Virus record (IMG/VR): IMGVR_UViG_3300030044_000065
Coordinates: 1 to 27,482 of that record
DNA from: a virus
DNA: 27,482 bases
Reading direction: 5' to 3' (one strand)
This document shows positions 429-25,229 of this stretch, piece by piece. The first letter of the stretch is position 1. Each line of letters begins with the position of its first letter. The notes below the pieces were generated by a model. That model was not told the DNA's origin. It did no database searches and saw only the letters and a program-made list of their open reading frames with translations. The translations under genes and the position numbers were made by a program.

Positions 429-1312
429 TTATCTAATTCATGCCTGTGTAAAAGTAGTTTAATATTCTCAATTTTTTTATCCATCAGAAGCATCTTGGTT
501 TCTGTGTTTGCAGATCTTAAGCATGCGTTCTTTGCATCCATGCATACCGGATCAAACAAAGAAACTACTTTATTCATAATCTCGCGCTCATCAGGAATTG
601 ATATGTTTCGTAATTCCTCAAGTTTCTTTGAAGCTTTAGACTGAAATTGGTTTAGTTTTTCATCAAAATCTTTCGATAGGTCTGAAATTTGATTCTGAAA
701 TTTGGTCGCTATATTATGAACAATCAGATCTATGTCTCTCACTTCTTTTGACAAGACCGTCATTCGTGTTTCATTGTTCTGAATGTATTTGAAATTTGAG
801 GTAACCTGTACGCCTTGTGCAAAAACATCCGAACGAAGACTTTTTATTTCATTAGACAATGAATCAATGGCTTTTTTTAATAATTCGATCGACTTCATAA
901 ATCCAATACAATTGTCCGTGAGTACTTTAATCTTCTCTTCAGCATGATCGTTGATATCTTCAATCGCCGATAGATCTTTATGAAACTGTTTCAGAACCTC
1001 TTGGAGATGTAAAATATCCCTGTGACAAACTTCAATGCCTTGATATTGATTAGCATTAATAGCTTCACAATCATTTACATGTTTTAGAAAAACTTCTGAA
1101 AGTTTAACAATAGCTTCTTTTACCTTTTCAGCCTTTTCATTCACGCTCTCTAAGTTTCCTTTAGTATGCGCATGATCTATAGCTACATGATTAGCTGTCG
1201 CACAAACTTGTTCATGCTCGATTCTTCTAACCATCAAAGGCAATAGAGATTCTAATGCAATTAATCTTTGCTCTATTGATCCAGCTTGTTCTTTTTTTTG
1301 TCCAAAATGCAT
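425..1312 (-). CDS. Long coiled-coil protein of the tail-fibre region, unknown function
   Basis: The protein has 295 residues and is almost entirely alpha-helical by composition, with heptad-like spacing of Leu/Ile from about residue 15 to the end and no Gly/Pro-rich breaks. There is no signal peptide or membrane segment and I recognise no family. It is preceded by a GGGAAA-type ribosome site, begins two bases after the stop of the upstream small structural gene, and its stop overlaps the next start (ATGA). A rod-like fibre, a fibre chaperone or an adaptor are possible. Its place between two fibre-type genes suggests a virion or assembly role, but nothing in the sequence proves this. Confidence 0.75.
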   Translation of the reverse strand: MHFGQKKEQAGSIEQRLIALESLLPLMVRRIEHEQVCATANHVAIDHAHTKGNLESVNEKAEKVKEAIVKLSEVFLKHVNDCEAINANQYQGIEVCHRDILHLQEVLKQFHKDLSAIEDINDHAEEKIKVLTDNCIGFMKSIELLKKAIDSLSNEIKSLRSDVFAQGVQVTSNFKYIQNNETRMTVLSKEVRDIDLIVHNIATKFQNQISDLSKDFDEKLNQFQSKASKKLEELRNISIPDEREIMNKVVSLFDPVCMDAKNACLRSANTETKMLLMDKKIENIKLLLHRHELDK

Positions 1313-1314
1313 AA

Positions 1315-1653
1315 TTATTTCCCATAAATTGTTTCGATATAGACAGCGTTTTTAGATGCAGCAGTAGACTGTTTTACATAAAATTGTGTTTGAGCACTTA
1401 TGTAAAATGATGCTCCGAAATCATGATTAGCGCTAATATCGTAGAGCACGAAAGATGAAGCGGGTACAAACAAATGATTATCAACTCCATCTAATGAGAA
1501 AAACATATCTCCATCAGTGTTATTGATAATCCGGAACGCGTGAGCAGGAAATGCAAGGGGTGTTCCCACTGCTGCATACGTACCGGATATTCCACCAAAG
1601 GCCACGCTTCTTATAGGCTCGAATAAAGCTCTTATCGATTGAAGATTAGGCAT
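1315..1653 (-). CDS. Small beta-rich virion protein
   Basis: I place the start at the ATG at 1653 (protein begins MPNLQSIRAL, 112 residues) because GGTGGA lies seven bases upstream; a longer frame opening at 1686 lacks a good ribosome site. The start overlaps the end of the upstream fibre gene by eight bases. The sequence has the look of a small phage tail or head accessory protein: a Phe-rich N-terminus, a segment FRIINNTDGDMFFSLDG (about residues 40-56), and a C-terminus ending in strand-forming sequence (FYVKQSTAASKNAVYIETIYGK region). I know similar short proteins from phage structural operons, but without an assigned function. Confidence 0.7.
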   Translation of the reverse strand: MPNLQSIRALFEPIRSVAFGGISGTYAAVGTPLAFPAHAFRIINNTDGDMFFSLDGVDNHLFVPASSFVLYDISANHDFGASFYISAQTQFYVKQSTAASKNAVYIETIYGK

Positions 1654-2566
1654 TGATAATCCACCAGTTAAATGTTGATGTTTCATTGCCGGTGGAAGTT
1701 AAAGTAAATCCAGTCCCATCCTGTGCAGTAATGCTGACATTACCGGGAGTGCCGCCTGTTGTTGCTCGACAATAGAATACTTTAGCTGTAATGCTGCACG
1801 CCGTTGTGGCTACAGTGACTACGCCGGGTGTTCCGGCCATTACTCCTGAAGTTCCTACTGAAGCGTTAGAGCCTGTAGCAATTACAATTTTATTCCCCGC
1901 AGTCGCCAGTGATAAATTGCCGTTTGTCGCAGTGATATTCCCAAGCGTTGCCGTTAAAGTAGTTGTGGCTGTAAGCGATCCGGTGACAGCAGTGTTTCCT
2001 GTGGCATTACCAATTCTAGTTGCCCCTGTACCACCTGTACCGATTGTAGTGATTGCAGCGCCGGAGATATTGATGTTGGTAGTTCCAACGATGTTAGTCG
2101 CAGCAAGCGTGCTTAAAGCTGTAACGCCTAGAGTAGTACTTACAGTAACAGGGCCAGTGATCGCAGTTCCGCCTGTTGCATTCCCAATGTTCGTTGCTCC
2201 AGTTCCACCAGTGCCTATAGTAGTTATACCGGATCCGGAGTTGTTGATGTTCACTGCACCTAGAAGAGTAGTACCTACAAATGTAGCTGTACCTGTGACT
2301 GTTAGATTAGTGAATGCGCCGGTATTTGGTGTGACTGAACCAATTGGAGGAGGTGTAGTAAGGTTCGTTTTCAATGTCAACGGCGTGACGATCTTGTTGT
2401 TTACTGTACCTGTGTTGACTTCTGCTTGTGTGGCAAGGGCTGCTTTACCAGCTACTGAAGTCGTTGCAGCCGGAACGTTTCCACCGACTTCTGAGAGTTT
2501 GACTATCCCGGCGACCGTCGCTGTTGCGCTTCGTCCTTCATAGCCTGCTTGATTAATTTTAGGCAT
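1646..2566 (-). CDS. Tail fibre protein with duplicated Gly/Thr-rich shaft repeat
   Basis: The 306-residue protein has an N-terminal segment (ATATVAGIVKLSEVG then ATQAEVNTGTVNNKIVTP, residues 15-63) of the type common at the start of phage tail fibre modules. The middle is a low-complexity Gly/Thr/Ala/Asn beta shaft in which a unit of about 40 residues occurs twice: both copies contain ITTIGTGGTGAT followed by IGNATG and a TTL ending, near residues 113-155 and 170-205. The C-terminal part (VFYCRATTGGTPGNVSI to FNWWIINA) resembles the globular ends seen in phage fibre and appendage proteins. A CAGGAGA site precedes the ATG. A host-contacting role is likely; the receptor is unknown. Confidence 0.8.
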   Translation of the reverse strand: MPKINQAGYEGRSATATVAGIVKLSEVGGNVPAATTSVAGKAALATQAEVNTGTVNNKIVTPLTLKTNLTTPPPIGSVTPNTGAFTNLTVTGTATFVGTTLLGAVNINNSGSGITTIGTGGTGATNIGNATGGTAITGPVTVSTTLGVTALSTLAATNIVGTTNINISGAAITTIGTGGTGATRIGNATGNTAVTGSLTATTTLTATLGNITATNGNLSLATAGNKIVIATGSNASVGTSGVMAGTPGVVTVATTACSITAKVFYCRATTGGTPGNVSITAQDGTGFTLTSTGNETSTFNWWIINA

Positions 2567-2609: not shown

Positions 2610-5429
2610 TTAAAAATCCATGATCTTGTTGGCTTGTTCAGCTACCTGAATAAGCTGTAGCATTGTCTGATAGATCAGTTCTTTTTTTCGTGCGGAGTCC
2701 ATATCTAACGCTTTGACTTCCTTCATGAAGTGCATCATGCGCGTCACAGCTTTGTAGGTAGGAGTTTGTCGGACTTTATTGTATTTCTGATTTAACTTTA
2801 CGGCTTCATCTTGACGGCCTTCCTTCACAAGTTTCTGTATAGTCTTATGCACTTGCTCAGTAGACTTGTAGTTGTCGAAGAACTCCCGGATGGGTTTAGC
2901 GCTCATAGTGGGATAGTCTGTGTAAAACGACTTGAGGAAGTAGTTAAGGTCTTCTGCTTTAAACTCGTCAGTGCCACCGATGATCTTATAGGCTTTGTCA
3001 ATGCCATCTATCAACGAAGTGCCCAGAGCTCCCGACCATCTATTCACGTAGTTCTCTACGACAGCCGGACGGAATGTGTTCTCGTCGCCGAATATCTTAG
3101 CCAGGCCACGCGATAAATCTACGAACACTTGAGTGCCTCTCTCGTTGAATTGCTCGGCAGGCAGTAATCCTTCGCGTCCATATGGCACAACTGGTGTGTT
3201 AAAAAAGAACATCTTGTTAGCCCAAGCTTCCAATGCGGGCGCGACGGCTGTAGGGATGAAGAGCCTAGAGGTTGTGTAGCCGGCTAGTGTTTCCTCGGCG
3301 AATGTCTTGAATCCTTTCGGGTCTTTATCATGTATAGCATAAACGGCTGCCTCTATAGCATTTCCAAGGAAAACACCAAACTCTTGAGTCTTAGGTATCT
3401 TAATGATAGGAGCATTCTTCTTATCATCGTAGAAGGGAGCCATATCGACGTTGTAGAAGCTATCCTGCTCCCACTGAGCCTGATTGCGCACGCGCTCGTT
3501 GTCGGCATTGAGCATTGAGTTTATCAGTGCCGGAACGCCGAAGTAGCCTATAGCGCGTAAGTAAGGAACGGCTGTATCTTTAAAGGTGTAGTTGCCATTC
3601 GCATCTGTTTTAGGCTTCATGTACTTAACGAACTGAGCATTACCTTGAATGAAAGCATTCGAGAAGGGGACGATTGAGTTGACGACTTCCGCGATAGCAC
3701 CTTTCTTTTGAAAGTCCAGGGTGATGTTCCTCGCAGCATGTGCAGCTTCTTGACGTGTAGCGCCTTTCTCTATCCCTTTGCGAAATTCTGCAACGCGGGG
3801 AGCATTCTCAAAGGCGTGGTTCCATTCCTGTATCTTCTTTAAGCCTAACCAGTTATCTTTAACAGCGCGCTTGAAGAACCCACGGTCTTTCGCCTTTCGC
3901 ATTTGATCAATGTTCTTTGACCAAGCATCTCTAGTCAGCGAGCTTGCCGATGAATAAGCACCACCACTCCGAACAAACTCTTCATACCAAGCATCTTTCT
4001 TGAAAGCACTGAAAGTTCCGCGCACGATGTCCGGAAGAGTGAGTCCATACTGTGATGTAGTAAGAGCATGCGGGATATCCCTAATGAATGCTTTTGCCAT
4101 ATAAGCAGGTGTTATAGTAGCCCCAAAGCGAAGCCCTTGCGCTGGATAGCTCATAAGTTTCATGAGTATTCCACCCTCGCGCGCTGTGCCCAAACCCTTG
4201 ATAGCCTCATAGATAGCTGGGTCTACAGCATAGGATTTCTTCACTCCATCCTCGAATACATTGACGGTGTTCTCACCTTTTACAATTGGATTCTCTGTGA
4301 GAACCTCGATGACTTCAGCCGGAAGATCTTTGAAGTATTCGACAGGAAGACCCTTATCTTTAATAGATTTAAGCAGCTCTTCCTTGGACTTCTTAGGTGT
4401 AGTGACTTCTTCAAACAAGCCCTGTGCCGCAGTTCCTTTCGCATCTTTTGCAAGCTTGCGCATCACACCATTTCGCTCGCTCATCGCAACTATCAAGGCT
4501 GAGTTATTGTAAGCTGTTTGAATAGGATCGAGTATGTCATAGCCAGACTCCACATTTGTACGCGCTTTCACTGCATCTTTGGGTTCCATTCCACCTGTAG
4601 TTCCAAGTCCAGCTCTATTCGAACCTTCTACTACTCTATAAAGCGGAGCGTACATCTCGTGAGAGTTAACCATCTGATCATATGACTTTTGAGAGATCAA
4701 TTGTGCATCGCGGGCGAAGGCTAGATTATCCTTCATGTACTCAGTAAATTCATTCCCAAACTCTTTGAACTGCGGGAATTGTCTCTCCGCCTGTCTCATT
4801 GCTGCGACATCCTGAATATACTTTGCTGAATCAGTCTTTCCTTGCTTACGAAGATCTTCTGACCGCGTACGCGCTGCTAAGTAAGCGGACGCGTCTTCGT
4901 AGTTATCGATCACAGGTTCAACTATTTCAGACAAGCTCTTCCCTGTCTTCTCGTTACGCCTTCCATCTTCAGAGTATTTAAACCTTCCTTCAGTTGTATA
5001 TGTAACAGCCGCTTCCGCAGCGCCGGCATATACTTCCGCATACTGTTCAGCTTGAGGGGAAATCTTCCGGATAGGAGCGAGTTTGCTTAAGAAGTTTCTC
5101 TCAAGAGATTCCTTGTTGAAGATCTCGCCAATTTTCTTCTTAAACCATTGAAGCGGGGAATCTGGCCTATCAAACTTAATCTGCGATTTAACGAGGTCTA
5201 GTGGCGTCGCGTTCTTCTGCCAATCAGCATATTCAGTGCTTGCCTTCTGTAATTCTTTAGCGCTCTGGGGGAACGCCTTACTCCACACATTCTCCATGTA
5301 CTGCGCAACTTGTGGAAAAAGCTCACGTGCCTTGTTAGGATTCTTAACATATAGCTCTGTAAAATCCTTGAAAGCATTCTCTACAGTCGCCGTATTCCTT
5401 ACGCGATCTCTTGTAGTACACGACGTCAT
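2610..5429 (-). CDS. Large internal virion/ejection-type protein with LPD38-like domain
   Basis: The start chosen is the ATG at 5429, which overlaps the upstream stop as ATGA and has GAGG five bases upstream; a GTG two codons earlier is less well placed. The protein has 939 residues and is largely helical. Its central-to-C-terminal half has the pattern I associate with large polyvalent protein-associated domain 38 (LPD38): FIRDIPHALTTSQYG, then an Arg/Glu-rich helical stretch with NAPRVAEFRKGIEKG, AAHAARNITLDFQKKG, and the IVPFSNAFIQGNAQF turn near residues 590-605. Such domains occur in large virion proteins delivered with phage DNA, next to head and tail-hub genes as here. No peptidoglycan-cleaving or protease motif was seen. 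A DNA-ejection role is inference from family and position. Confidence 0.7.
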   Translation of the reverse strand: MTSCTTRDRVRNTATVENAFKDFTELYVKNPNKARELFPQVAQYMENVWSKAFPQSAKELQKASTEYADWQKNATPLDLVKSQIKFDRPDSPLQWFKKKIGEIFNKESLERNFLSKLAPIRKISPQAEQYAEVYAGAAEAAVTYTTEGRFKYSEDGRRNEKTGKSLSEIVEPVIDNYEDASAYLAARTRSEDLRKQGKTDSAKYIQDVAAMRQAERQFPQFKEFGNEFTEYMKDNLAFARDAQLISQKSYDQMVNSHEMYAPLYRVVEGSNRAGLGTTGGMEPKDAVKARTNVESGYDILDPIQTAYNNSALIVAMSERNGVMRKLAKDAKGTAAQGLFEEVTTPKKSKEELLKSIKDKGLPVEYFKDLPAEVIEVLTENPIVKGENTVNVFEDGVKKSYAVDPAIYEAIKGLGTAREGGILMKLMSYPAQGLRFGATITPAYMAKAFIRDIPHALTTSQYGLTLPDIVRGTFSAFKKDAWYEEFVRSGGAYSSASSLTRDAWSKNIDQMRKAKDRGFFKRAVKDNWLGLKKIQEWNHAFENAPRVAEFRKGIEKGATRQEAAHAARNITLDFQKKGAIAEVVNSIVPFSNAFIQGNAQFVKYMKPKTDANGNYTFKDTAVPYLRAIGYFGVPALINSMLNADNERVRNQAQWEQDSFYNVDMAPFYDDKKNAPIIKIPKTQEFGVFLGNAIEAAVYAIHDKDPKGFKTFAEETLAGYTTSRLFIPTAVAPALEAWANKMFFFNTPVVPYGREGLLPAEQFNERGTQVFVDLSRGLAKIFGDENTFRPAVVENYVNRWSGALGTSLIDGIDKAYKIIGGTDEFKAEDLNYFLKSFYTDYPTMSAKPIREFFDNYKSTEQVHKTIQKLVKEGRQDEAVKLNQKYNKVRQTPTYKAVTRMMHFMKEVKALDMDSARKKELIYQTMLQLIQVAEQANKIMDF

Positions 5430-7489
5430 ACGCACCTCAAATCTATGCCCATTTCTTTTAGATCCGCAGTCATCGCTTCGACAAACTTACGGCGTCCGGA
5501 ACTCTTCTCAATTTTATCCAACACATTCTCGGCGATGGAATCCGCGCTCTTCTGCACGCGCTCTACGTAGTCCGCGTTCCCCTTAGTCTTCGCAATCTCA
5601 TCGGTAGATTCTTTGATGGTCTTCTTGGATCGTTTCTTCTGCGCAGACTTTAGCTCTTTAACATCTTGCTCCGCGCGCGCGATGTCACGCCTGATAAGAT
5701 CCTTTACGGCGCGTGGTTCTTTGGCTTGGAGGGATTCATTCAGTCTTTTGTAAAGCTGCTTTACATTGGACTCTTTCTCTTGAATCGCGGAAGTTAGACG
5801 CTGTTCTAATGGCTGACGCATTTGTTTTTCAGTCTCATAAAACTTGTTAGCCTTCTCCTGGACTTTCTCTTGCTTGCGCTTTAAGCCCTCGATGCGACCG
5901 CGGATTTTCCCTGCGAGTTCGGCTTGTTTTTGAAGAGCTTTTTCTTTTTCTTTTATTTCTTGAAGGTGGGCTTTGTTAGCTACTTTTTTTAATGGTTCAA
6001 TTCTCTCTCGAAGTTTGTCCTTGAATAGATCTAATTTAGCTCTTCCTTTTTTAATAGAATCTGTACGAGTTTTTAGATCTTGTCTTAGTTCTTCGATGAA
6101 TTTTTGATCCTCGGCATTCTTTTTTTCTTCACGAGAAATCCTTTCTTTTTTAGCTTTTTCACTTAATTCCCTAATCTTCTTTTCGCGAATCCCTTGTTCG
6201 GTATACCTCTTTTCCTTTTCTCGCAATTCTCGCTCATGAGCAGCTTTAGCTTCTTTTGTCTGGAGGATTTTATTTTTAGCTTGTTCTTCTTGAACTCTCT
6301 TTAATTCCTTGAGATCCTTTTCCGCGCGACTCTTTAATTCTTTATGCTCTGCGGCAGTTAAAGCTTCTTGTTTAACTTTTAACTCTTTGATCCTTTGCTC
6401 TAGATCTTTGCGTAATTCCTCAGCAAATTTAGTGTCTTTTTCCGTCCTCTCCTGTAACTCTTTAGCCTCTATCTCTTTAATACCTTTCTCTATGCGCGCG
6501 AGCTCTTTGCGTTCCGGCTCAGCTTCCGCAATACGGCGCAGTCCACGCTCGAATTTCTGTGATAGGTTTAATTTTTCCGGCTGTTCGGGAGTTTCAGAAG
6601 GAGTTTTTTTTGGTTTAACCTCGAATAATTCCTCTTCCGTAGCCTCAGATAATTTCTTCGGGCGTTCTTTTCCAATCCTTTCAGCTTCAGCCTTCTGCTC
6701 AGGAGTAATAGGTGTTTCCAAGTGCTTAGGGTTGTATTCCAAAAGTAATTGTTCTGGTGGTTTGCCAGTTTCTTGGTGTTTCTTGAACATCCCCCGGATA
6801 GCTTTATCACCGAGTTTGAATCCACCGAGTGTAATCAGGTTATCCCGGAAGTCCTCAAAGGAAAGCTCTCCATGCCCAATCGCTGCACCGCCAACAGTGA
6901 AAGCTCCGGCTTCCAAGATCTGTTCGGCTGCTTGCTTTGAAAGTGGAGTGCGCAGTAGCTTGTTGACAGCCGAGTTGTTAAGCGCAGCGCCGAATAGAGG
7001 TTCGGCCATCTTAAGGGCTGACCCAAGCACAGCGGATTTACCGGACTGTACAGCGACATCCTTCCAGTCATCGAAGCTGAGAGTCGTGTCACCGCGTTTG
7101 ATAGCCTGAAGGTAGTTGTTGTATATAGTCTTGACGGCGGTATCATAAGCGAATCCCGCGCCCGCGCCAACTACCGGCCCACCAATTGCAGTTCCAGTAA
7201 CCAATCCTGTACCGAAAACTGGAAAGCTGGCAGCCATGTTAACGAGAGTTTCTACCCCATCACGCAGCCAGTTAGGGTTCTCTTCTTTGTATTCTTCGGC
7301 AGCTTGTTGCTCTTCAAGAGACAACCCTTGGCCGAGCAAGATTCCGGATGACGAACCGCGAAGACCGCGCTCTATGAGATTGGGTGTTTCGGGCCCCTCA
7401 TAGCGTGAGATGTCCTCTAATACCGGCTGATTCTCAGAACGTTGCGTGGGAAGATCTACGTGTTGCCTCGGTTTAGGCCGTTTGATCAT
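5426..7489 (-). CDS. Internal virion/ejection protein: hydrophobic Gly-rich N-terminal region plus long coiled coil
   Basis: The protein has 687 residues. Residues about 80-125 form a Gly/Ala/Val-rich hydrophobic stretch (FPVFGTGLVTGTAIGGPVVG onward) followed by helices. Such segments in phage ejection and tape-like proteins can insert in or line the passage across the host envelope. From about residue 235 to 670 the sequence is an extreme Lys/Glu/Arg-rich continuous coiled coil. The start overlaps the upstream stop as ATGA with AGAGG upstream, and its own stop overlaps the next gene the same way, so three ejection-type genes are coupled. It is the nearest thing in the window to a tape measure, but the podovirus gene set argues for an internal core or ejection protein. 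No enzymatic motif was found. Confidence 0.65.
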   Translation of the reverse strand: MIKRPKPRQHVDLPTQRSENQPVLEDISRYEGPETPNLIERGLRGSSSGILLGQGLSLEEQQAAEEYKEENPNWLRDGVETLVNMAASFPVFGTGLVTGTAIGGPVVGAGAGFAYDTAVKTIYNNYLQAIKRGDTTLSFDDWKDVAVQSGKSAVLGSALKMAEPLFGAALNNSAVNKLLRTPLSKQAAEQILEAGAFTVGGAAIGHGELSFEDFRDNLITLGGFKLGDKAIRGMFKKHQETGKPPEQLLLEYNPKHLETPITPEQKAEAERIGKERPKKLSEATEEELFEVKPKKTPSETPEQPEKLNLSQKFERGLRRIAEAEPERKELARIEKGIKEIEAKELQERTEKDTKFAEELRKDLEQRIKELKVKQEALTAAEHKELKSRAEKDLKELKRVQEEQAKNKILQTKEAKAAHERELREKEKRYTEQGIREKKIRELSEKAKKERISREEKKNAEDQKFIEELRQDLKTRTDSIKKGRAKLDLFKDKLRERIEPLKKVANKAHLQEIKEKEKALQKQAELAGKIRGRIEGLKRKQEKVQEKANKFYETEKQMRQPLEQRLTSAIQEKESNVKQLYKRLNESLQAKEPRAVKDLIRRDIARAEQDVKELKSAQKKRSKKTIKESTDEIAKTKGNADYVERVQKSADSIAENVLDKIEKSSGRRKFVEAMTADLKEMGIDLRCV

Positions 7490-21146: not shown

Positions 21147-21149
21147 GTA

Positions 21150-21222
21150 TTGTCAGAAAAGGGTTCGAACCTCTAACCGCATGAACCAAAGTCATGTGCT
21201 CTACCAATTGAGCTATCTGACA
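21150..21222 (-). tRNA. tRNA-Gln (anticodon UUG)
   Basis: All arms fold canonically on the minus strand: a seven-pair acceptor stem (TGTCAGA with TCTGACA), D stem GCTC/GAGC with a GG-containing loop, anticodon stem CATGA/TCATG with loop CTTTGGT giving UUG, and T arm AGAGG-TTCGAAC-CCTTT. Length is 72 plus the discriminator A. No CCA is encoded. Position 37 is G rather than the usual A. Confidence 0.88.
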
Positions 21223-21227
21223 AAAAA

Positions 21228-21276
21228 GTCCCCTAACAGTGCGAAAAACTTCGCAATAAAACGCACCATAAGGGAC
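21228..21276 (-). ncRNA. Structured spacer hairpin inside the tRNA array
   Basis: Outer arms GTCCC/GGGAC and middle arms GTGCG/CGCAC pair across a small internal loop, and a further hairpin GCGAA/TTCGC can form inside. It is not a tRNA. It sits between the Gln and Thr tRNAs. It could be a processing signal, a degenerate tRNA, or a separate small RNA; the strand is assumed from the array. Confidence 0.5.
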
Positions 21277-21302
21277 AAATTTCCTGAGCTAGCATGCCAA
21301 GA

Positions 21303-21373
21303 TGCCCTTTGACTGAATCGAACAGCCATCTTCTCTTTACAAGAGAGTTGCTCTACCATTAAACTAAAAGGGC
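21303..21373 (-). tRNA. tRNA-Thr (anticodon UGU)
   Basis: The minus strand shows a seven-pair acceptor (GCCCTTT/AAAGGGC), D stem GTTT/GAGC with an ATGGTA loop, anticodon loop CTTGTAA giving UGU on a stem with four good pairs, and T arm GGCTG-TTCGATT-CAGTC. Length is 70 plus the discriminator. No CCA is encoded. Confidence 0.85.
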
Positions 21374-21377
21374 TAAA

Positions 21378-21415
21378 GATAGTTTTTTCCCGGGCTACGG
21401 CTAGGTAACACTATC
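21378..21415 (-). other. Inverted repeat between Thr and Glu tRNAs
   Basis: Six-base arms GATAGT and ACTATC lie 26 bases apart, in the spacer directly upstream of tRNA-Thr in the direction of transcription. The loop is GC-rich (contains CCCGGG). A processing structure or a tRNA relic are both possible. Confidence 0.35.
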
Positions 21416-21425
21416 AAACTATGTC

Positions 21426-21497
21426 TGACCCTAGCAGGAGTCGAACCTACGTTCTCGGATTGAAAACCCGATGTTCTAACCATTAAACTATAGAGCC
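21426..21497 (-). tRNA. tRNA-Glu (anticodon UUC)
   Basis: The acceptor GGCTCTA/TAGGGTC pairs fully with two G-U pairs. The D loop contains TTTAATGGTTA. The anticodon stem TCGGG/TCCGA holds loop TTTTCAA, giving UUC. The T arm is GTAGG-TTCGACT-CCTGC. Length is 71 plus the discriminator. No CCA is encoded. Confidence 0.87.
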
Positions 21498-21499
21498 AT

Positions 21500-22470: not shown

Positions 22471-22696
22471 CGCGCTTCCATGTACTTTCTAGTCTATAAA
22501 CGTTAATCCACTTAAGCTCTTTATTTGCTTCGTGTGTATCTTTTATTTTCTGTGGAATTCTGGAATCCAAAAAATCTATAAGTTTTTGATTTATTTGATA
22601 CCCAACAGGATAAGATGCAAACATATATGTGCTCCAACCACTTACGCCGTATAAGATAATTACATCTCGCGCTGAATCATCTTGAAGAATTTTCAT
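22448..22696 (-). CDS. Small protein, unknown
   Basis: The protein has 82 residues. The start overlaps the metallophosphoesterase stop as ATGA with AGGA upstream. The sequence is a mixed alpha/beta type with a hydrophobic N-terminal strand region (DVIILYGVSGWSTYMFASYP, about residues 11-30) and a polar helical C-terminus. The hydrophobic stretch is too short and polar to call a membrane helix. I recognise no family. Coupling to the phosphoesterase suggests co-expression. Confidence 0.6.
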   Translation of the reverse strand: MKILQDDSARDVIILYGVSGWSTYMFASYPVGYQINQKLIDFLDSRIPQKIKDTHEANKELKWINVYRLESTWKRDESRKSD

Positions 22697-23325
22697 AATA
22701 CAATCCTAATTGGTTTATTCACAGGTTCATACTCTTCATCCATATGCGCAGCGTTGATGCAGATAGTATCCGGTTTGTCAGAGAAATTATGTTTTAAAGT
22801 CATTTGACCGTAGCCACCATGAATATGCCCAAACACATGCAGCTTGGGCTTCACGCGCTCAACAGCCTTGCGCAGCTCTTCGCACCCGCAGTGTTCACCA
22901 TAACGGTTAGTATCGAGTATTCCCCAAGGAGGACCATGAGTGACAAGGATATCTATGTCATCCGGAATTAAATCCCACTTAGCTTTAATAGCCTCACCAC
23001 GATCGAGCATGAAGTGCCAGTTGTAGAACGTTGGTGTCCACGGTGATCCCCAGATTTTTAAGCCTTCGTATTCTTCCATCGAGTCTTGAAGATAACAGCC
23101 TACAGAAAAGTATCTCCTAGAGACTTTTTCTCTTTGAAGAAATCCATCGTGGTTGCCGGCAATGATAATCTTCTTGGGATAATTCTGTTTCATCAACCAA
23201 TCATTGAAGTTGTGATATTCCTGTAACATATCAGCCCCAGTCAAATCTCCGGCAACGATAAGAAGATCTCCTCCATGTAAAGCGGGTTTACATCCATGAA
23301 GGTCGGATATGCAATCGATTATCAT
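22693..23325 (-). CDS. Calcineurin-like metallophosphoesterase (MPPED-like)
   Basis: The start at 23325 (MIIDCISDLHG, 210 residues) overlaps the upstream stop as ATGA. All metal-binding motifs are in order: DLHG (8-11), GDLTG (26-30), GNHD (57-60), THGPP (129-133) and GHIHG (166-170). The segment IWGSPWTPTF (91-100) places it with MPPED-type phosphodiesterases, which hydrolyse phosphodiesters such as 2',3'-cyclic nucleotides in some members. The true substrate cannot be read from sequence. In this operon, with an RNA ligase two transcription blocks upstream, a role in RNA end processing is conceivable, but DNA or nucleotide substrates are equally possible. Confidence 0.87.
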   Translation of the reverse strand: MIIDCISDLHGCKPALHGGDLLIVAGDLTGADMLQEYHNFNDWLMKQNYPKKIIIAGNHDGFLQREKVSRRYFSVGCYLQDSMEEYEGLKIWGSPWTPTFYNWHFMLDRGEAIKAKWDLIPDDIDILVTHGPPWGILDTNRYGEHCGCEELRKAVERVKPKLHVFGHIHGGYGQMTLKHNFSDKPDTICINAAHMDEEYEPVNKPIRIVL

Positions 23326-23534: not shown

Positions 23535-23762
23535 TCAACTTCCTATTCCTTTCTTAGTCCAATTCCAATAACCATAAATGTGGAAGCCTAGACTAACCAG
23601 ACATCCTCCAGTTTGCACGATAAGGCCCATACAAGCGTTCCGCGTAGCCCAATAGCAGATACATATACCCCACAGCACAAAACACGCACGGCGACCCCTT
23701 ACATTGAGCCAGCGTCCGAGTTTGCCTAGAATGGTGAAGGCAAGATCAGTCAGCTCGCCCAT
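23535..23762 (-). CDS. Small membrane protein (two predicted helices)
   Basis: The protein has 75 residues. Two hydrophobic segments at about 26-43 (ACFVLWGICICYWATRNA) and 47-63 (IVQTGGCLVSLGFHIYG) are separated by a short loop, with a basic, Trp-containing end (YGYWNWTKKG). The Gly/Tyr/Trp-rich second helix and NW.KKG end resemble short PnuC-like or small phage membrane proteins, but only part of such a fold could be present. AGGGTG lies upstream of the ATG. No function is assigned. Confidence 0.6.
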   Translation of the reverse strand: MGELTDLAFTILGKLGRWLNVRGRRACFVLWGICICYWATRNACMGLIVQTGGCLVSLGFHIYGYWNWTKKGIGS

Positions 23763-24155: not shown

Positions 24156-24749
24156 TTATGGCCAGGGAAGGCCAAACTTCTTCTTAGTAATCTTTGCCAT
24201 GCGCCCATCCGGGTGATGCCATACGATGCCTTCATATTCCATACGTGCCAATATGCGTTCAATCTCATCGTATGTACGTGGATTGTGGCAAATGTTGCAG
24301 TAGTTATGAATGTAGTCGAAAATACTATTCGTCGCATGTCGAATGAGTGCATTATGCCCAGTATTGTGAGGATTACCCTGCACTTCAGGGCCTACAAGCT
24401 CATAAGTACCATCGTCAAACCTGCCTTGCCCCCACGCCCATGCCATCTGGTGGTAGTAGTCCTTCATGGTAACAGGAATCCAATAGATATGTTGTCCGCG
24501 ATCAGTCATATCTCCGCAGTGAATCCAGTCATTTTGCGGAGGATGCTTGCGCACGCGCTCAGTTTTACTTACAAGTTTTGAGTTATCATAACGCTTATAG
24601 AGCTTTCCATTGATCACCGCGCACGCAGACCCATCCAATTTCGCAGTAGGAACACCCTCGCCGTCGATAACCCACTGGCATAGAGGATTAACCTCGCGCG
24701 TGAGGATATGGTCGTCTGTAGATAGGAATAAAGAAGGAATCTTTTTCAT
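24156..24749 (-). CDS. RNA ligase, RLIG1/C12orf29-type (DUF5565)
   Basis: The 197-residue protein has the nucleotidyltransferase ligase motifs: motif I TAKLDGSACAV (residues 35-45, with K37 the predicted adenylated lysine), RYD (53-55) as part of motif Ia/III, ELVGPEVQGNP (117-127) as motif IIIa, EGIVWHHPDG (173-182) as motif IV, and AKI (185-187) as motif V. The closing segment EGIVWHHPDGRMAKITKKKF then GLPWP closely parallels the end of human C12orf29/RLIG1 as I remember it (IEGIVWHCSDG...HLGLCWP), and ELVG....GNP also matches. That family joins RNA 5'-phosphate and 3'-OH ends. TAATG coupling to the upstream gene and a GAGGAAA site support the start. Repair of cleaved tRNA is the likely role given the nearby tRNA array. 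Confidence 0.85.
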   Translation of the reverse strand: MKKIPSLFLSTDDHILTREVNPLCQWVIDGEGVPTAKLDGSACAVINGKLYKRYDNSKLVSKTERVRKHPPQNDWIHCGDMTDRGQHIYWIPVTMKDYYHQMAWAWGQGRFDDGTYELVGPEVQGNPHNTGHNALIRHATNSIFDYIHNYCNICHNPRTYDEIERILARMEYEGIVWHHPDGRMAKITKKKFGLPWP

Positions 24750-24955
24750 TAAATTTCCTCATAATAAGCAATGCGTTTGCGTGAGATCATGAAACACGCA
24801 ACGCAGCGGAATTTGATATCTATTATTTGTATATTGGAGTATTCAGCTTCACACGCGAACTTCCGGAGAGTCTGATCTTCAAGAGCATTCTCAAGATTTC
24901 TTACGATTTCCATCATCCACCCATCGCGCAAGTAGAAAAAACACTTCGTCTCCAT
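24749..24955 (-). CDS. Small protein upstream of RNA ligase
   Basis: The start is the ATG at 24955 (METKCFFYLRDG, 68 residues) with AGAGG just upstream; the longer frame overlaps the previous gene. The stop overlaps the ligase start (TAATG), so the two are coupled. It is an alpha/beta-type sequence with four Cys, WMMEIVRNLENALEDQTLRK in the middle and FRCVACFMISRKRIAYYEEI at the end. No family is recognised. A link to the ligase is suggested only by coupling. Confidence 0.6.
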   Translation of the reverse strand: METKCFFYLRDGWMMEIVRNLENALEDQTLRKFACEAEYSNIQIIDIKFRCVACFMISRKRIAYYEEI

Positions 24956-24962
24956 CGTACCT

Positions 24963-25229
24963 CTAGAAGAAAGTTGCTGGATACATTTCGCGAAGCTCTT
25001 GCATGATGTTGCTCTCTCGCTTCTCGCGCCACGCATACACCCATTTCATGCCTTTCCAGCCCTGTGTTGGATCAAAACTAGCGAGCCCTATAAAGATGTC
25101 CTTTGCGCAGTAATTGCGCCCTATGGCCTCTACTTCGATGTTTACAGAGGGGATGGCATCGTGCACTAAAACCCAGCCATCTTCCTTCTTGTTCTTAAAG
25201 TCTTTGTATGAATTTTGCGTGTCGTACAT
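24963..25229 (-). CDS. Small DUF551-like protein
   Basis: The start is the ATG at 25229 (88 residues) with GAGG six bases upstream; a TTG eight codons earlier lacks a site. It contains DGWVLVHDAIPSVNIEVEAI and WKGMKWVYAWREKRE, which share the W-V-D-IP and WREK landmarks with the protein at 23322-23534. It ends with TAG just before the next ribosome site. It is the first gene after the 14-base palindrome at 25256. Function unknown. Confidence 0.55.
   Translation of the reverse strand: MYDTQNSYKDFKNKKEDGWVLVHDAIPSVNIEVEAIGRNYCAKDIFIGLASFDPTQGWKGMKWVYAWREKRESNIMQELREMYPATFF

Follow-up and report, generated by a model that had tools for sequence, protein, structure and literature searches.

A predicted RLIG1-family RNA ligase gene in a tailed phage

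Does the small protein encoded at positions 24156-24749 (minus strand) of a virus genome fragment belong to the ligase family of human RLIG1 (C12orf29), and if so, which broken RNAs might it seal? The fragment, referred to here as the window, is a stretch of 27,482 nucleotides from the IMG/VR record IMGVR_UViG_3300030044_000065. The portal, terminase and capsid sequences identify the window phage as a tailed virus of the P22-like type, and a 42-kb contig obtained from another sample is 100% identical to the window over the 13.3 kb compared. Among the other genes of the window, the ORF at 2610-5435 (minus strand) codes for a 941-amino-acid protein that carries the large polyvalent protein domain LPD38 and is probably delivered together with the DNA, and a 75-amino-acid membrane-like ORF at 23535-23762 (minus strand) gave a sub-threshold match to an NMN transporter family. 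In the longer contig of the window phage (L021), serine recombinase-like and ParB-like proteins were recognised by eye at 3505-4919; no Pfam family was found for the latter. These two genes suggest a temperate lifestyle. A DnaB helicase is also encoded in L021.

The ligase gene and its family

The gene codes for a protein of 197 amino acids. Its ATG overlaps the stop codon of the preceding ORF (TAATG), and an AGGA sequence lies 5' of the start. The preceding ORF (24749-25036, minus strand) encodes 95 amino acids of unassigned function and is probably co-translated with the ligase. A sequence-only reading of this locus had listed four ligase motifs, and all were recovered in order in the 197-residue protein: KLDG (containing K37), ELVGPEVQGNP, EGIVWHHPDG and the FGLPWP end. 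A regular expression describing the ordered ligase motifs matched this ORF only, with one match in the six frames of the window and none in 200 shuffles of it. The GLPWP C-terminus is present as described and is shared by the window phage and its closest relative, but it is not a conserved motif of the family.

In Pfam, the protein matched the RLIG1 family (PF17720) with 30.4 bits, against a curated cut-off of 25. This match spans only the C-terminal half of the protein (112-197), and the N-terminal half is tied to RLIG1 by the PDB alignment (VPTAKxDG...KRxD). All 14 diverse homologues searched also match PF17720. No other Pfam family matched the ORF and a search of NCBIfam returned nothing meaningful for it, whereas in PHROGs the full length of the protein was covered by phrog_14301, annotated as 'RNA ligase'. 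The only credible sequence relative in the PDB is the RLIG1 protein of Yasminevirus (9c6l), with E-values of 1.1e-9 for the single sequence, 2.6e-25 for a 14-sequence profile and 2.4e-24 for a profile of 74 sequences.

Predicted fold and active site

An AlphaFold2 model of the ligase was obtained from an alignment of 74 phage-contig sequences (mean pLDDT 90.6), and its fold is that of an RLIG1-like nucleotidyltransferase to which no distinct RNA-binding domain is attached. When the model was compared to the PDB using Foldseek, the best match was 9c6l (TMq 0.73, E 1.1e-11). The twelve top matches were exclusively chains of Yasminevirus RLIG1, with E-values of about 1e-11 to 1e-9, and were followed at a great distance by the Naegleria RNA ligase (E 6.5e-3) and T4 Rnl1 (E 2.3e-2). 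A fold search in BFVD placed a protein of Cellulophaga phage phi10:1 at the top and Yasminevirus after it.

It is thus very improbable that the protein is instead a divergent relative of T4 Rnl1, Rnl2 or the DNA ligases, with which it has covalent nucleotidyltransferase motifs in common, as well as weak PHROG matches (PHROG 968 'RNA ligase', E 0.39; phrog_562 'RNA ligase and tail fiber protein attachment catalyst', matched by three homologues, best E 0.019) and the remote fold similarities given above, but whose PDB sequences remained unmatched even at E 5, while the family profile found no match in the complete genome of T4, a phage with both Rnl1 and a DNA ligase. Neither the sequence nor the fold comparisons yielded evidence against RLIG1 membership. 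Since the profile comparison matched RLIG1/DUF5565 and provided no tie to Rnl1, Rnl2 or DNA ligase, the original proposal that the gene represents the RLIG1 branch and not a T4 Rnl relative is right. We are highly confident that this ORF is best explained as an RLIG1-type RNA ligase of a phage, made up of just the nucleotidyltransferase domain, its membership of the family being read from sequence and modelled fold.

The catalytic residues of Yasminevirus RLIG1 are K73, D75, R89, E174, H195, E240 and K253, and mutation of these seven residues lowers adenylation and ligation (PMC11494293, PNAS 2024). They align to K37 and D39 (motif I), R53 (Ia), E117 (III), H138 (IIIa), E173 (IV) and K186 (V) of the phage protein. 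Six of these positions are invariant across 74 phage-contig homologues; the seventh, D39, is aspartate in 72 of them and asparagine in two. ATP-dependent auto-adenylation and ligation of 5'-phosphate/3'-hydroxyl RNA ends have been demonstrated for RLIG1 homologues (PMC11494293). As all seven catalytic residues are kept, an active enzyme is predicted, and the protein is probably a functional 5'-3' RNA ligase. Its annotation as a predicted RLIG1-family ATP-dependent 5'-3' RNA ligase draws together the Pfam, PHROG and PDB matches, the AlphaFold2 model with Foldseek, and the invariance among homologues.

End-healing enzymes, tRNA genes and neighbouring genes

RNA end-healing enzymes were searched for in RLIG1 phage contigs, many of which are fragments. 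Among 38 contigs, an AAA_33 kinase over the cut-off was found in two, RtcB in one and any Metallophos gene in four; among 44 contigs, HAD_PNKP phosphatase was found in two, HAD_SAK in three, 2H phosphoesterase in two and RlaP in four. T4, used as a positive control, was detected for both kinase and phosphatase. With this control positive, neither the AAA_33 kinase nor HAD_PNKP was present in the 42-kb contig of the window phage, which may be incomplete, and no T4-type healing-and-sealing module, in which kinase and phosphatase are encoded with the ligase, was found in it. Kinase and PNKP phosphatase were likewise absent from the isolates Collard, phi10:1 and NTR1, whose genomes were searched in full. 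As end-healing enzymes are rare in these phages, most phage RLIG1 proteins appear to work alone, sealing breaks with 5'-phosphate and 3'-hydroxyl ends. The contig of the closest RLIG1 relative (L020) encodes a PNKP-type HAD phosphatase (PF25109, 71 bits) at 1044-1682 (plus strand), 2.4 kb upstream of its ligase.

About 0.8 kb downstream of the window ligase and on the same strand lies a gene (22693-23325, minus strand) for an MPPED2-like calcineurin (class III) metallophosphoesterase, identified by Pfam Metallophos and by PDB 3rl4 (MPPED2, E 7.4e-42). Its translation probably starts at Met19 of the listed ORF, because in other viral contigs the homologous proteins start at its residue 17-19. 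Copies that are about 58-61% identical occur in such contigs, and a tRNA-Leu gene is located near several of them. The position and orientation of this gene would fit a healing-and-sealing pair, in which the candidate MPPED2-like enzyme would act on 2',3'-cyclic phosphate ends, by opening or removing them, and RLIG1 would then do the sealing, and the PNKP-type phosphatase of the closest relative would provide a similar step. Such a pair is nevertheless doubtful, as no RLIG1 gene was found beside the MPPED relatives in other viral contigs, Metallophos genes are as infrequent as given above, and no 5'-kinase accompanies the two genes. Both the MPPED2-like and the PNKP-type enzyme are lineage-specific exceptions that could make RNA ends ready for sealing, but their pairing with the ligase is not conserved.

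Three tRNA genes (Gln-TTG, Tyr-GTA and Glu-TTC) were detected by ARAGORN at 21149-21498 (minus strand), 2.7-3 kb from the ligase. In related phages, tRNA genes were found within about 10 kb at 12 of 60 loci, which is a raw count without matched control and not an enrichment figure; an SSB gene tried as control for it was found at a single locus. In bacteria, tRNA genes are over-represented near DUF5565 genes (PMC10364804). Large tRNA arrays were seen in two RLIG1 phage contigs, L024 (18 genes, with RtcB also encoded) and L073 (10 genes). When ORFs lying no more than 10 kb from the ligase were clustered for 67 RLIG1 loci, only general phage genes recurred and no conserved partner emerged; judging by its representative, the second-largest cluster (15 members) seems to consist of antisense shadow ORFs of the ligase itself.

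Proposed role, distribution and comparison with known ligases

According to the mechanism inferred from the solved homologue, ATP would adenylate K37, the AMP would then move onto the RNA's 5'-phosphate at the break, and attack by the 3'-hydroxyl of the other half would seal the nick. The most likely use of this reaction would be the rescue of cleaved tRNA, of the host or of the phage, during infection, as by T4 Rnl1 but via a different ligase family. Repair of tRNA as a counter-defence against host anticodon nucleases is a plausible putative role, and it is also the leading hypothesis for RLIG1 in PMC11494293. The three tRNA genes of the window and the bacterial association with tRNA genes speak for this role; the low share of phage loci with tRNA genes (12 of 60), the lack of a recurrent neighbour that would indicate a pathway and the scarcity of polynucleotide kinases speak against it. 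In that study, bacterial and viral RLIG1 homologues were assayed and several ligated tRNA halves; breaks in the tRNA anticodon loop were sealed in vitro by the Yasminevirus and human enzymes.

It is quite possible, though short of probable, that the phage enzyme is an active RLIG1 working on other breaks, in rRNA, mRNA or nuclease-cut RNA with 5'-phosphate/3'-hydroxyl ends, without healing enzymes. The rarity of end-healing genes in RLIG1 phages and the presence of tRNA genes at just 12 of the 60 loci are consistent with such substrates, as is the described requirement for human Rlig1 in 28S rRNA integrity under oxidative stress (PMC13244148). However, healing enzymes could come from the host, the fragmentary contigs weaken the survey, and the in vitro ligation of anticodon-loop breaks favours tRNA. 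For the RNA ends left by VapC nucleases, no firm statement was found in the literature searched, and one paper allows 5'-OH or 5'-P ends. A broader proposal, that phage RLIG1 is a widespread, mostly stand-alone sealing system reversing host defences that leave directly ligatable 5'-phosphate/3'-hydroxyl ends, in a niche apart from the T4 Pnkp-Rnl1 route, is speculative and on present evidence unlikely.

Relatives of the ligase were matched in at least 327 stretches of IMG/VR and in two bacterial assemblies, and they also occur in annotated isolates (Mycobacterium cluster K phages, Cellulophaga phi10:1, Burkholderia FLC9 and Nocardia NTR1). The family had been introduced in the sequence-only reading as a vertebrate ligase; it is not confined there, since homologues are listed in bacteria, viruses and metazoans (PMC11494293). 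The methods of the same paper describe a 'C. phage' RLIG1 cloned for assays, probably, in our interpretation, from a Cellulophaga phage. Phage RLIG1 was therefore known, and RefSeq and PHROGs already name phage members 'RNA ligase'; the present work is a solid identification of a further phage RLIG1 and not a discovery. It confirms that the ligase family of human RLIG1 is common in tailed phages, including isolates infecting Mycobacterium smegmatis and Cellulophaga, which offer tractable laboratory systems for gene-deletion tests of the still uncertain physiological substrate of RLIG1.

Compared to known systems, the window ligase resembles T4 Rnl1 (gp63), which acts with PseT, in its predicted ATP-dependent 5'-3' RNA sealing and in tRNA repair as the likely use, but it belongs to another family, lacks the RNA-binding domain and has no kinase/phosphatase partner that could be found. 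Human RLIG1 also belongs to PF17720 and has a KxDG motif with K57 as the adenylated lysine; its segment 81-111 is absent from Yasminevirus RLIG1, and a tighter substrate preference has been reported for it (PMC11494293). Yasminevirus RLIG1 (9c6l/9c6m) is the top PDB match by both sequence and fold and has the seven catalytic residues in common with the window ligase, although it is larger (277 versus 197 amino acids) and comes from a giant virus of amoebae instead of a phage. The members of phrog_14301, from Mycobacterium phages Collard, Paola and Gengar, Cellulophaga phage phi10:1 and Nocardia phage NTR1, align along the whole protein, are of similar size and have the same catalytic residues, at about 31-39% local identity. 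In contrast to them, the window phage and its closest relative contain about 8 extra residues near positions 63-71, and in the window ligase about 10 more are inserted at 147-156.
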